From Gelidibacter pelagius (GTDB lineage Bacteria; Bacteroidota; Bacteroidia; Flavobacteriales; Flavobacteriaceae): a stretch of DNA of 64,000 bases. Shown piece by piece: positions 4,946 to 22,420 of this stretch (positions are counted from its first letter, which is position 1; the number at the start of each line of letters is the position of its first letter). Under the pieces are notes generated by a model. That model worked only from the letters and a program-made list of their open reading frames with translations, did not search any database and had not been told where the DNA came from. The translations under genes and the position numbers were made by a program. Location: assembly GCF_017581925.1 (NCBI RefSeq), contig NZ_JAGEVG010000010.1, positions 1 to 64,000 of the forward strand, written 5' to 3'.

Positions 4946-7210
<2,265 letters not shown>

Positions 7211-7277: not shown

Positions 7278-7850
7278 TTAAACAATGTTAATATGATAGT
7301 GATGTAATAATCCCAAGACATTTTCTTTCGAGAATTTGGCTCTTGTAATAGTATTGTTTTCAGGATTTATAACAAAGTTTTCCGAGGAGCTTAAGTCGCT
7401 GTTTTTAAGATTTGTTTGCTCGAAAACAGCGTGTTTGAAGTCGCAGGTATCGAATTGGCCATTGCTAAGATCCGCTTCAGCGAAATTGACTTGATTGAGA
7501 TTGCAATTGCTGAACCTGATCCCTTTTAGTTTTAGTTTATAGAAGGATGAGAATTGCAATTGGCAATTTGAGAATGTAAATGACAATAAAAACGGATTGC
7601 AATCCTGAAATTGGAGTCCGATCATTTTACAATCCATAAAATCAACTTCTCTAAAGATGGTATATGTGATATTGGCATTGCTAAAGTTACAAGTATCAAA
7701 TTCACATTCTATAAATGTAATTGAAGACAGGTCGGTTTCGGTAAAATTACAATTGGTGAAGTTGCAGTTGTCATATTCTGCTTTTTTAAATGGGTTTTCA
7801 GTAAAATCAATATTTGAAAAGTGCTCAGAATCAATGTATGGTAGTGTCAT
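7278..7850 (-). CDS. Pentapeptide-repeat protein (Qnr/McbG-like)
   Basis: A 190-residue protein built almost wholly of A(D/N)LXX-type five-residue repeats, for example CNFTN, CNFTE, CEFDT, CNFSN, ANITY and ADLSN. This predicts a right-handed quadrilateral beta-helix. The spacing, with a break near residues 85-100, resembles the Qnr/McbG group, whose characterised members protect DNA gyrase by mimicking DNA. Activity against quinolones cannot be inferred from this. No signal peptide is present, so it is cytoplasmic. It lies downstream of a candidate RNA gene on the same strand; no perfect promoter of its own was seen. Confidence 0.9.
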   Translation of the reverse strand: MTLPYIDSEHFSNIDFTENPFKKAEYDNCNFTNCNFTETDLSSITFIECEFDTCNFSNANITYTIFREVDFMDCKMIGLQFQDCNPFLLSFTFSNCQLQFSSFYKLKLKGIRFSNCNLNQVNFAEADLSNGQFDTCDFKHAVFEQTNLKNSDLSSSENFVINPENNTITRAKFSKENVLGLLHHYHINIV

Positions 7851-7897
7851 GGGTTGGATTAAGAATAGAGGAGCCGAAGTTAAGTGTAATCTCTTAT

Positions 7898-7942
7898 AAA
7901 AACAAAAGCCATATCATTGTAGCTAAACTACCTTGACATGGC
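7898..7942 (-). terminator. Terminator of the candidate RNA
   Basis: On the minus strand GCCAT, TCA and TAG pair in order with CTA, TGA and ATGGC around a five-base loop, giving a long interrupted stem. TTTTGTTTTT follows. Confidence 0.85.
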
Positions 7943-8405
7943 TTTCTTTGAAACAGTGACGTGATCTAATTAACATTGCTGTTAAATCAGCCGACTAAAA
8001 CTCACGTTTTACAATCGTCTTTTTCAATTCAAGTTTACTATTTCAATAAAACACTTCTTAACTATCAAAATGTATTGACCTGTTAGTGAAATGTTTCGGG
8101 TTATTGTTTTTCTTGATGTTATAACTCTTGCAATTCGCTTTCACGACATACAAGATTTAAAACATTGCTTCCTACCTTGGTATTCACTTTCGTTGCTACC
8201 ATCTTTGGAAACTTTCAACTTTACTAGTTGCAACCTACCGAAGCGTGCTGCACTTTTTAAAGTATCATGATTTTCCAGCCTTCACGCTTGTACGTGACAC
8301 TTAAAAAATCTCAAAAAACAATCTTATAAAGAACGTTTCTTTATACGATTTAAATCAAGTTCAATTTTTTAGGTTGAAACCAACTCAGAGGTTGTTATCA
8401 AATCG
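7898..8405 (-). ncRNA. Candidate structured non-coding RNA, about 0.5 kb
   Basis: No reading frame of 60 codons exists in either strand across roughly 500 bases. The block is bounded on the minus strand by a promoter-like pair (8442-8411) and a strong terminator hairpin (7942-7898). Internal structure includes a 9-bp perfect stem with a three-base loop (TATAAAGAA/TTCTTTATA at 8325-8345), a CACG/CGTG hairpin near 8287-8300, and a GGTA/TACC pair enclosing a GAAA-type loop near 8182-8203. It is not 6S, tmRNA (no tag ending in YALAA), RNase P (no GAGGAAAGTCC motif) or SRP RNA as far as I can read. An AT-rich decayed region is the alternative. Confidence 0.5.
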
Positions 8406-8410
8406 TTTTA

Positions 8411-8442
8411 CTAATTTACAAAAAAATGTCTTGTTTGCCAAA
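8411..8442 (-). promoter_or_regulatory. Promoter-like element of the candidate RNA
   Basis: On the minus strand TTTG (8442-8439) is separated by 20 bases from TAAATTAG (8418-8411), one mismatch from TAnnTTTG. Transcription would start near 8405, beyond the rplS terminator. Confidence 0.6.
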
Positions 8443-8500
8443 ACTTTTAGGTATTTAGTTATCAACCTATTATGAACTTGACTTATTAACATTTGTTAAT

Positions 8501-8531
8501 AAAAAAAGCCTTGAAACAAATCAAGGCTTTT
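8501..8531 (-). terminator. Intrinsic terminator after rplS
   Basis: A 9-bp stem (AAGCCTTGA/TCAAGGCTT) with a six-base loop is followed on the minus strand by seven T. It lies 23 bases past the rplS stop. Its A- and T-flanks could also stop transcription in the other direction. Confidence 0.92.
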
Positions 8532-12593: not shown

Positions 12594-14012
12594 TTATTTG
12601 AAAATAAAGCTCTCCTTTTGTCCTGAACTATTGATGATCGATAGTTTTTTTAGATTTTTCTCAAGATTATCGCCATATTTTTGTTTCAATTTAATGATGT
12701 CATCCACGTCGTTAATTTTTTGGTCATTAATTTCTGTAATGATATAGCCTCTATTAATACCTAAGTTTTTATAAAGGGCATAATTCTCGTTTTTAACGAC
12801 CACAACACCATTAGTAATGTTCGCGCTTTTTTTGAGGTCACTCGGAATATTCCTCAATTGCATGTTCAAAAAATCGACGGTGGAAATCTCAGTTTTAGAC
12901 AAGGTTACCGGAATGATTTTTTCGGCACCGTTTCTATCTAAAGTCAGATTAACCACATCATCCGGACGTTTTGTGCTCAAATAACCGCTTAAATCAGAGA
13001 ATTTTGAAATCGTAATATTGTCAATTTTTTTGATAATATCTCCTTTTTTTATCCCAGCTTTTTCTGCTCCGGAACGTTCTTCTACATCGCTAACATAAAA
13101 TCCTTGGGTCGTATTGACCTCAAAGGTTTCAGCGGATTTACTGTTCAGTTCGCCGCCTCTAACACCCAAGATACCTTTTTGAACATCCCCAAACTCCATA
13201 ATGTCTTCAACGACTTTTCTGGCAATATTGCTTGGTACTGCAAAAGAATACCCTATATAGGAGCCAGTTTGGGAAGTGATGGCTGTATTGATACCAATGA
13301 GTTCGCCACGGGTATTGACCAAAGCTCCACCTGAGTTGCCAGGGTTGACCGCGGCATCGGTTTGAATGAACGATTGGGCATTGGTACCTGATAGATCTCT
13401 GGATTTGGCGCTAATGATTCCGGCGGTAACTGTGGAAGTTAAATTAAATGGATTGCCCACTGCCAAAACCCATTCACCCACTTTTGCTTGATCAGAATCT
13501 CCAAAAGTTGCAAAAGACAGCTCTGTATTTGCGTCAATCTTTAATAATGCGATATCGGTTTTTTCATCGGTTCCAATAAGTTCGGCATCATAGATTCGAT
13601 TATCATTTAAAGTTATGGAAATCTTTTGAGCGCCATTGATTACGTGGTTGTTAGTTATAATATAACCGTCCGGCGAAATAATGACACCACTACCAGTACC
13701 AACTTGAGCACGCTCTGTGTTTCGCCCCATAAACAAATCCTGAAGGGTCATTGGCGCCCTACTGATGGTCGTATTTTTAACGTGTACTACGTTATGAACA
13801 GCGTCATTTGCAGCTTCCGTGAAATCTGGGACATTCAAGGTGCCATAAGAAGCCACTGCTTTATGGCTTGTCGGGAAATAAGATAGGGTCGAATCTGTAC
13901 TACTCGTAGTAACTGCGATGTCATTATCTTTCTCAATAAAAAACTTATAGGCAGAAAGTGTCATGATTCCACCTAATGCAGATGCTAAAATTAGGGTTAA
14001 AATCTTTTTCAT
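12594..14012 (-). CDS. HtrA/DegQ-family periplasmic serine protease
   Basis: A trypsin-like protease with PDZ domains that degrades or refolds damaged envelope proteins. The 472-residue protein starts with a signal or anchor segment (about 3-25). The catalytic triad is His123 (TNNHVI), Asp153 (KTDIALL) and Ser227 (NPGNSGGA). A first PDZ domain covers about 285-370, and a shorter, more divergent second one follows to the C terminus. The length is typical of DegP/DegQ. It is a single-gene unit diverging from dapF. Confidence 0.94.
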   Translation of the reverse strand: MKKILTLILASALGGIMTLSAYKFFIEKDNDIAVTTSSTDSTLSYFPTSHKAVASYGTLNVPDFTEAANDAVHNVVHVKNTTISRAPMTLQDLFMGRNTERAQVGTGSGVIISPDGYIITNNHVINGAQKISITLNDNRIYDAELIGTDEKTDIALLKIDANTELSFATFGDSDQAKVGEWVLAVGNPFNLTSTVTAGIISAKSRDLSGTNAQSFIQTDAAVNPGNSGGALVNTRGELIGINTAITSQTGSYIGYSFAVPSNIARKVVEDIMEFGDVQKGILGVRGGELNSKSAETFEVNTTQGFYVSDVEERSGAEKAGIKKGDIIKKIDNITISKFSDLSGYLSTKRPDDVVNLTLDRNGAEKIIPVTLSKTEISTVDFLNMQLRNIPSDLKKSANITNGVVVVKNENYALYKNLGINRGYIITEINDQKINDVDDIIKLKQKYGDNLEKNLKKLSIINSSGQKESFIFK

Positions 14013-14172
14013 TTTAAAAATAGTTTATTAGTGAATTAGGAAATTAATATGTTAAAATATCAGTGTATAACGATTAAAATTACTTTTTTGTTGCATCAAA
14101 AATGTTTGTTTAACGGATTTTAACGCCAACTTTAACGCTCGTTTAACACCTCAATAAATCGTCAAGAATCCT

Positions 14173-14180
14173 TATATTTG
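14173..14180 (+). promoter_or_regulatory. Bacteroidota -7 box for the dapF operon
   Basis: TATATTTG is an exact TAnnTTTG match that ends eight bases before the dapF ATG, so the leader can be only a few bases. No TTTG occurs at the expected -33 spacing. Confidence 0.6.
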
Positions 14181-14188
14181 CCAAACCT

Positions 14189-14968
14189 ATGAAACAGACA
14201 TTCTATAAATATCAAGGTACAGGTAATGACTTTGTAATGATTGACAATCGTCATCTATCTTTTGACAAAAAGGATACCAAACTCATAAAATTCTTGTGTG
14301 ACAGACGTTTTGGCATTGGAGCTGACGGACTTATCCTATTAGAGAACCACGATGCGTTGGATTTCAAGATGGTTTATTTTAATTCGGACGGGAATGAAAG
14401 TTCGATGTGTGGAAATGGAGGAAGGTGCATTGTGGCCTTTGCAAAGTTTCTTGGAATTATTGAAGACTGTACAAGCTTTGAAGCTATTGACGGTTTGCAT
14501 CATGCAGAGATAGTAAAGAATTCTGTAAGACTCCAAATGCAGGATGTCAGTCATTTGGAAAAGTTTGAATCACACGTGTTTTTAAATACAGGATCTCCAC
14601 ACCATGTGCAGATGGAAGCCGATTTGGCGCAGCTCGATATAAAAAAAGTTGGGTCTAAAATTAGATATGGTGCGCCATACAATAAAGATGGAAGTAATGT
14701 GAATTTTGTTTCTAAGATTTCGGATGACGTGTTTTCAGTAAGGACCTATGAGCGTGGGGTGGAAGATGAAACCTTGTCCTGTGGAACAGGAGTGACTGCA
14801 GTTGCTTTGGCGATGAACTATATTGGAGAGACTGAGAAAAACTTGATAACTTTAAATGTTGAAGGCGGAACGCTCCAAGTGTCTTTTGACAAAGACGGTC
14901 AAGGCTATAAAAACATTTGGTTGATTGGACCTGCAGTTCAGGTTTTTAAAGGAGATGTATCATGGTAA
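14189..14968 (+). CDS. dapF: Diaminopimelate epimerase
   Basis: DapF interconverts LL- and meso-diaminopimelate for lysine and peptidoglycan synthesis. Both active-site cysteines are in place in this 259-residue protein: Cys74 in MCGNGGRC and Cys198 in SCGTGVTA. The N-terminal GTGNDFVMID motif is also standard. It is first in a tightly packed plus-strand run; its stop overlaps the next start by seven bases. dapA occurs separately at 36969. Confidence 0.97.
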   Translation: MKQTFYKYQGTGNDFVMIDNRHLSFDKKDTKLIKFLCDRRFGIGADGLILLENHDALDFKMVYFNSDGNESSMCGNGGRCIVAFAKFLGIIEDCTSFEAIDGLHHAEIVKNSVRLQMQDVSHLEKFESHVFLNTGSPHHVQMEADLAQLDIKKVGSKIRYGAPYNKDGSNVNFVSKISDDVFSVRTYERGVEDETLSCGTGVTAVALAMNYIGETEKNLITLNVEGGTLQVSFDKDGQGYKNIWLIGPAVQVFKGDVSW

Positions 14969-20992: not shown

Positions 20993-22420
20993 TTACAGCG
21001 CTAATTTTTTGGCAATGTCATCAACATACTTTCTGAATTGTTTGTCAGTAGAAGAGAGGTTGTCAACAGTTTTACAAGCATGAAGTACAGTGGCATGATC
21101 ACGTTTTCCAATTTGCGAACCAATGCTGGCCAAAGACGCTTTTGTATATTTTTTCGCAAAAAACATAGCTAACTGTCTTGCTTGTACAATATGCCTTTTT
21201 CTTGTTTTGGATTGCAGGGTATCAACATCCATTTGGAAGTAATCTGAGACGACTTTTTGAATATAATCGATGGAAACTTCTCGTTTGGTGTTTTTGACAA
21301 ACTTCTCAACAATTTCCTTAGCGAGGCTAATGGTAATCTCTTTTTTGTTGAATGAGGATTGTGCGATTAAGGAAATAATGGCACCTTCAAGCTCTCTGAC
21401 GTTGGTTTTGATATGTTTGGCAACATATTCAATAATATCATCAGGCATTTCTACACCATCACGATACAATTTGTTTTTTAATATTGAGACTCTGGTTTCA
21501 AAATCCGGACTTTGCAATTCGGCAGAAAGCCCCCATTTGAAACGAGATAGCAAGCGCTGTTCTATATCCTGCATGTCGACAGGTGCTTTGTCACTTGTTA
21601 AAATGACCTGCTTTCCATTTTGATGTAAGTGATTGAAAATATGGAAAAACACATCTTGAGTTCCCGTTTTACCTGATAAGAATTGAACGTCATCAATAAT
21701 CAAAACGTCAATGATTTGATAGAAATGAATGAAATCATTTCTATTGTTCTTCTTGACAGAATCTATGTACTGCTGTGTGAATTTTTCAGCAGAAATATAC
21801 AATACTGTTTTTTCAGGATATTTATCTTTAATATCTATCCCAATGGCATGCGCCAAATGGGTTTTTCCAAGGCCTACGCCACCAAAGATCAGTAAGGGAT
21901 TAAAAGAGGTCCCACCAGGTTTATTCGCAACTGCCAATCCTGCATTTCTTGCCAAACGATTGGAGTCTCCTTCAAGGAAGTTTTCAAAATTATAATTGGG
22001 ATTGAGTTGCGACTCAATTTTCACATTTCTAATTCCAGGAATGATAAAAGGATTTTTTAATTCCGGATTTTTATTTTTTAACGGGATATCAACATCTTGA
22101 GATTTTACTGCGCTTCTATTGGAACTTGGTATTTTTTCAGTAAAAGGTTGTTTGTTGCCATAAGTGTTTTCCATCTTTATGACATAGACCAATTTTGCCC
22201 GATCTCCAAGCTCTTTATTTAAGGCTACTTTAAGTATTTTCACATAGTGCTCTTCAAGCCATTCGTAAAAGAATTTACTAGGTACTTGGATGCTCAGAGC
22301 ATTGTCAGTAAGCTTTACTGCTGTAATAGGTTCAAACCAAGTTTTATATGCTTGGGGTTGGATGTTGTCTTTTATAAAAGATAAACAATTTTTCCAAACC
22401 GATTGCGCAGTTACCTCCAT
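20993..22420 (-). CDS. dnaA: Chromosomal replication initiator protein DnaA
   Basis: DnaA binds the origin and opens it in its ATP form. The 475-residue protein has domain I (1-80), a short linker, the AAA+ domain with Walker A GGVGLGKT (180-187) and Walker B IIDDVQFL, sensor motifs, and the C-terminal DNA-binding domain with the GKRDHATVLHACKTV signature (about 438-452). No dnaN or gyrB adjoins it, and I found no cluster of TTATCCACA-type boxes, so the origin is probably not visible here. The gene diverges from a thioesterase gene. Confidence 0.97.
   Translation of the reverse strand: MEVTAQSVWKNCLSFIKDNIQPQAYKTWFEPITAVKLTDNALSIQVPSKFFYEWLEEHYVKILKVALNKELGDRAKLVYVIKMENTYGNKQPFTEKIPSSNRSAVKSQDVDIPLKNKNPELKNPFIIPGIRNVKIESQLNPNYNFENFLEGDSNRLARNAGLAVANKPGGTSFNPLLIFGGVGLGKTHLAHAIGIDIKDKYPEKTVLYISAEKFTQQYIDSVKKNNRNDFIHFYQIIDVLIIDDVQFLSGKTGTQDVFFHIFNHLHQNGKQVILTSDKAPVDMQDIEQRLLSRFKWGLSAELQSPDFETRVSILKNKLYRDGVEMPDDIIEYVAKHIKTNVRELEGAIISLIAQSSFNKKEITISLAKEIVEKFVKNTKREVSIDYIQKVVSDYFQMDVDTLQSKTRKRHIVQARQLAMFFAKKYTKASLASIGSQIGKRDHATVLHACKTVDNLSSTDKQFRKYVDDIAKKLAL

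Follow-up and report, generated by a model that had tools for sequence, protein, structure and literature searches.

Downstream of rplS in the flavobacterium Gelidibacter pelagius, a stretch of about 500 bases that encodes no protein appears to be the gene of a large, intricately folded RNA that is kept by many members of the Flavobacteriaceae and matches no family in Rfam 15. The element occupies positions 7897–8405 on the minus strand of the 64,000-nucleotide window analysed here (contig NZ_JAGEVG010000010.1, assembly GCF_017581925.1), with both ends inferred from the promoter and the terminator. Sequence and comparative evidence support an independent structured RNA gene that most likely acts in trans, a conclusion we hold with high confidence although it rests on no transcript data. 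A preliminary description had inferred from the sequence alone an independent transcription unit for a long structured RNA, with its own promoter, terminator and a GAAA-type loop and no evident relation to 6S, tmRNA, RNase P or SRP RNA. The analysis confirms these observations, supports that inference, and adds three features that had not been named: an upstream array of GTTNATAA sites, a near-invariant ACGTTCTTTA element, and a terminator stem conserved in sequence and not only in pairing.

Organization of the locus

The RNA gene is framed by transcription signals of its own. On the minus strand, a Bacteroidota-type promoter consists of TTTG at 8442–8439, 20 bases, and TAAATTAG at 8418–8411. 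The pattern TTTG-N17-22-TAnnTT occurs in the corresponding 110 bases of 59 of 97 related loci, against a mean of 7.85 in base-shuffled copies. At the other end lies an intrinsic terminator (7895–7946) with stem AAAGCCATGTCA/TGATATGGCTTT at 7904–7946 and the T-rich tail TTTTGTTTTTATA. A simple terminator scan does not list this hairpin, whose stem has an internal loop, but lists a bidirectional terminator-like hairpin at 8504–8531 that separates rplS from the RNA gene and is not part of the RNA. No listed ORF of 60 aa or more overlaps 7900–8405 on either strand, and a plus-strand ORF ends at 7899. A pentapeptide-repeat gene (7278–7850) and then monomeric isocitrate dehydrogenase (idh, 4946–7183) follow in the same direction. 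The larger genes before about 14 kb run on the minus strand and those just after it on the plus strand, with a change in local GC skew (14012–14189).

The predicted RNA of about 505–510 nt folds to a minimum free energy of −142.4 kcal/mol, against −101.9 ± 5.4 for 100 dinucleotide shuffles (z = −7.52, none as low). Within the window Rfam identifies 5S rRNA, Flavo-1 RNA (RF01705, 1497–1606, plus strand) and the L19-Flavobacteria ribosomal leader (RF03130, 8933–8960), but nothing at gathering thresholds in 7898–8405, and only three chance-level matches at E up to 10 (best E 6.3). An Rfam search of 20 related loci likewise gave no match at the RNA and found only the L19 leader, in 6 of the 20, many of which began only after rplS.

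Distribution in the Flavobacteriaceae

A nucleotide search of 59 related genomes gave 24 matches in 22 genomes, the two doubles being pieces of one locus, and the hits lie beside rplS. We then located rplS in 149 genomes of the family (146 with a match) and retrieved the downstream DNA of 120 of them. With the 22 loci of the first search this makes 142 loci, nine from the window's genus and one for each of 133 other genera, while 11 of the 144 other genera with an rplS match, most of them among the weakest matches, were not included. The terminator hairpin AAAGCCATRTCA...TGATATGGCTTT, with up to 3 errors, is found in 98 of 142 loci. One of these (G032; such labels denote the genomes compared) was dropped because its hairpin lies elsewhere, leaving 97 loci, or 89 of 134 genera. 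Of the 97, 71, 9, 9 and 8 have 0, 1, 2 and 3 errors, respectively, whereas Markov-resampled copies of the same 142 stretches gave 0 matches in each of five rounds.

Four more loci (G020, G069, G103, G104) keep ACGTTCTTTA and the upstream array, and in G020, G069 and G103 a changed terminator is visible. The loci of G143, G077, G149 and G088 carry the array, GTTC(T/A)TGAAC in three of the four (ACGTTCTTTT in G149) and a T(A/G)TTTAGCAT motif, and look like a further diverged type, possibly a separate subfamily. In contrast, eleven loci have idh 101–321 bases behind rplS and so no room for the RNA there. A covariance model of the 3′ part (R1, built from 36 of the 49 aligned sequences described below) gave these eleven no convincing hit elsewhere, so some genera may lack the RNA. 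R1 is a weak instrument, however: it pairs only the terminator and one small hairpin (23 pairs) and did not report G069, G103, G149 or G088, whose rplS loci do carry the RNA or a diverged form. Absence by R1 is therefore weak evidence, and the true range is uncertain. In the order, R1 hit 7 of 119 genomes, six in the family, while the seventh (G251) is another hairpin behind a coding end without ACGTTCTTTA. Six genomes of one genus, which may be Flavobacterium, have no hit, and an R1 hit in G087 is a different hairpin behind coding sequence.

Of 119 records, 91 have rplS 250–1000 bases upstream and 8 more have ACGTTCTTTA. Of the 20 left, 9 have idh downstream, 1 is cut by a contig end and 10 have no other feature and look like chance terminators, at least five of these ten being in records titled as other phyla or another family. 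One metagenome contig titled Chlorobiota carries the whole rplS-RNA-idh locus, with an rplS 86% identical to the window's, and its title is probably a misassignment. No blastn match of the RNA was found in the phage or plasmid collections.

Covariation supports the predicted secondary structure

Of 58 RNAs of 540–650 nt, 49 (49 genomes, 48 genera) were aligned by sequence alone; seven of the window's genus and two others were left out. A G-test with average-product correction over all column pairs, blind to structure, places standard pairs at the top. Of the best 20, 30, 50 and 100 column pairs, 16, 21, 29 and 35 belong to the consensus structure derived afterwards, and 42 of its 137 pairs lie above the 99.9th percentile, where 0.14 are expected. 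Some high-ranking column pairs are not base pairs (for example ranks 14, 19 and 21 of an earlier run that included the flanks), as expected from shared descent. RNAalifold with default settings predicts 65 pairs, 41 with compensatory changes. On the fuller structure, 101 of 137 pairs show a change on both sides, 90.7% of cells pair, and 765 cells are compensated, against 226.4 ± 21.5 when shuffled and 133–194 when the partner is slid, with a covariation score of 0.360 against 0.199 and 0.072–0.089. The structure was derived from the alignment on which these counts were made, which favours it on the share of paired cells, but the blind scan does not have that flaw.

The consensus comprises a 5′ arm, a hairpin with ACGTTCTTTA, a multibranch domain closed by TTGTTTTTTGA/TCAAGAAAAACAA, a long hairpin with a conserved tip, a 3′ arm and the terminator. 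In the window, the 5′ arm (8345–8406) is closed by ACGATTT/AAATCGT and contains inner hairpins. This closing helix appears as an extra covarying helix in the blind scan (alignment columns 8–12 with 51–55) and is not in the structure counted above, whereas an inner hairpin is helix 2 of that structure. The hairpin ATAAAG-AAACGTT-CTTTAT follows at 8326–8344, and its 3′ part is ACGTTCTTTA. The multibranch domain (8102–8323) is closed by GATTGTTTTTT/GAAAAACAATA and carries four covarying arms (helices 5–18), one tipped by C-GAAA-G at 8192–8187. The long hairpin GAAACATTTC/GAAGTGTTTT (8048–8097, helices 19–22) carries the conserved apical sequence GTCAATACATTTTGA (8079–8065), and the 3′ arm (7948–8046, helices 23–28) is closed by TTGAAATAGT/ACTGTTTCAA. 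A middle-length and a short subfamily, compared by eye and with RNAalifold, keep the 5′ hairpin and the terminator and, in the middle-length one, similar closing helices, while their inner arms differ.

No coding signal was found in the RNAs. The longest ORF has a median of 33 aa (maximum 68) over 97 RNAs, and the ATGs shared between sequences open only a few codons in most of them, except one inside the terminator stem that runs off the alignment in 42 of 49.

Conserved sequence elements

Notably, 7 of the 13 outer pairs of the terminator stem (helix 29) never vary in the 49 aligned genomes, although any paired stem should terminate, and the hairpin occurs once in the genome. This suggests that something reads its sequence. 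The ACGTTCTTTA element is present within one substitution in 80 of 97 loci with the RNA and 5 of 45 others, against 3 of 142 in the reverse-complement control. In its hairpin the 3′ strand is fixed while the 5′ strand and the loop vary. The element is boxA-like, but by resemblance only, and it sits in a hairpin: 16S leaders and 16S–23S spacers of three genomes carry GTTCATTGACATATTG, presumably the rRNA boxA, with small variations and once preceded by AC, and only GTTC-W-TT is shared with ACGTTCTTTA.

The upstream array (8455–8502, minus strand) contains four GTTNATAA-type sites (TTATTAAC, GTTAATAA, GTTCATAA and GTTGATAA), the first two forming a palindrome. The block pattern, with up to 4 errors, is found in 90 of 97 loci with the RNA and 14 of 45 without a recognised terminator, several of the latter being the diverged types, against 10 of 142 in the reverse-complement control. 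Its 20-base palindromic part occurs at one other place in the genome, and the array was not found before the 16S genes of the loci inspected (L170–L175). It is proposed to be the binding region of an activator of the RNA gene.

The unit is separable from its neighbours

In G162, G134, G133, G136, G156 and G150 the RNA is on another contig than rplS, and in G127 it lies about 2 kb off. In these seven genera array, ACGTTCTTTA (one substitution in G136 and G156), RNA and terminator are all there (in G150 with one error), with idh downstream. In G134, G133, G136, G156 and G150 the RNA-idh unit follows a different protein gene whose end, translated by eye, reads EYNIIEPEKSIESAI(K/R)KIQRQL(K/R)R, suggesting one ancestral relocation. 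Conversely, a convergent reading frame lies behind the RNA in G070, G155 and G080, and an ABC-transporter ATPase gene, judged by its sequence, in G084. Neither neighbour therefore defines the unit. Nevertheless, idh is the steadier companion, being downstream in all seven separated units and in G081, which leaves room for a functional link with idh.

Discussion

We interpret the locus as the gene of an independently transcribed, trans-acting structured RNA of a class not described in Rfam 15. In this model, transcription starts from its own promoter, with the dedicated array probably binding an activator. About 65 nt into the transcript, the sequence ACGUUCUUUA, which resembles boxA, may recruit Nus factors so that RNA polymerase reads through a long untranslated, structured region, a step that is weakly supported and doubtful. 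The RNA then folds into the covarying arms, and transcription ends at a terminator whose stem is inferred to stay on the RNA as a sequence-conserved 3′ element. The mature RNA is inferred to act in trans as a scaffold for proteins that recognise the conserved unpaired or semi-paired sequences. This reading is favoured over base pairing because nearly every arm is kept by compensation and the fixed sequences are short and scattered, but on its own it remains tentative and falls somewhat short of an even chance.

The strongest alternative, possible but less likely, is a base-pairing regulatory RNA that acts on several mRNAs through exposed conserved sequences such as GUCAAUACAUUUUGA or ACGUUCUUUA. 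Near-invariant short sequences are present, and such RNAs are known in this family of bacteria, like Rfp18 of Flavobacterium psychrophilum, which affects protease mRNAs (PMC9723704). A transcriptome of this species reports SRP RNA, RNase P, tmRNA, 6S and 85 new RNAs, and its Rfp RNAs, some strongly structured and conserved, have a median length of 176 bp. However, the length of the RNA and its 30 helix segments, 29 of them with at least one pair changed on both sides, are much for a base-pairing RNA. A cis-acting leader or attenuator of idh or the pentapeptide gene, ended by a regulated terminator, is very unlikely. While idh follows the RNA in sense in many loci, also where rplS does not precede it, and the terminator lies 112–253 bases before idh in some loci, the convergent frames and the ABC-transporter gene noted above, as well as the pentapeptide gene that intervenes in the window and other loci, speak against it. 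In the window RNA no upstream segment longer than 5 nt pairs with either arm of the terminator, so no antiterminator is evident.

A DnaA-box cluster of the replication origin, with the RNA as a by-product, is a remote possibility. The array resembles DnaA boxes, several closed genomes start about 10 kb away, and dnaA (21065–22420) lies about 13 kb from the RNA in the window and about 9–11 kb away in G101, G019 and G021. However, in 20 sampled stretches of 20 kb of one closed genome, G101, GC skew turns from negative to positive between 1.0 and 1.16 Mb, while the RNA lies at 3.15 Mb in a stretch itself mixed in sign, so dnaA is probably not at the origin there. The nearness to coordinate 1 in G021 and G155 goes with dnaA lying at coordinate 1. 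The array units are mostly TTATNAAC (198 of 202 counted) and not TTATNCACA, the likely DnaA-box consensus, and no TTATNNACA lies in the 400 bases before dnaA in the window. Studies of origins in related bacteria predict origins by GC skew or Ori-Finder and did not bear on the RNA (PMC11278836, PMC2768785, PMC12843772). Equally remote is a diverged 6S, RNase P, tmRNA or SRP RNA or a decayed coding gene, despite a size that may be in the range of RNase P or tmRNA, since no Rfam model matches here, 6S-Flavo (RF01685) and RNase P RNA (RF00010) lie elsewhere in the genome (for tmRNA and SRP RNA only the absence of a match at this locus was established), and the ORFs are short and not conserved.

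By size and intricacy the closest kind are the OLE, ROOL and GOLLD RNAs (PMC12286853), which are likewise large, with many helices kept by covariation, although no Rfam model, probably including those of these families, matches the RNA. Dimerization through a kissing loop at the palindrome AACGTT is not favoured, as the palindrome is broken in the middle-length subfamily (TTTACGTT, TTAGCGTT and others) while the 3′ side stays fixed. A pseudoknot between that loop and a second AACGTT before the 3′ arm in the middle-length group also found no support: own partners pair no better than exchanged ones (summed length 98 against 99.6; 1330 of 2000 shuffles as good), albeit with low power, as only 19 sequences were used and some were poorly located. 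The L19 leader in Flavobacteria (PMC7247131) lies at the same gene but is a 29-position leader before rplS, whereas the RNA follows rplS behind a terminator and can be separated from it. Descriptions of this leader and of Flavo-1 and 6S-flavo (PMC2864571) mention, in the parts consulted, no RNA behind rplS, nor did any title or abstract opening found in our literature searches describe an RNA at this locus, although supplements and most subscription papers fell outside them.

A more far-reaching but unlikely possibility is a new class of large housekeeping-type RNA peculiar to Flavobacteriaceae, switched by its own activator array and transcribed by a Nus-modified polymerase recruited through an rRNA-type boxA, which assembles a dedicated ribonucleoprotein; the sequence-fixed terminator stem would be its 3′ protein- or RNA-binding handle. 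Large structured non-coding RNAs are themselves a known kind; the family itself matches none in Rfam. The compact unit and its presence in cultured genera such as Gelidibacter, Winogradskyella, Maribacter and Zobellia make its role directly testable. A roughly 500-nt RNA with some 30 helix segments, unmatched in the RNA-family library, is kept in 89 of 134 genera examined of one bacterial family.
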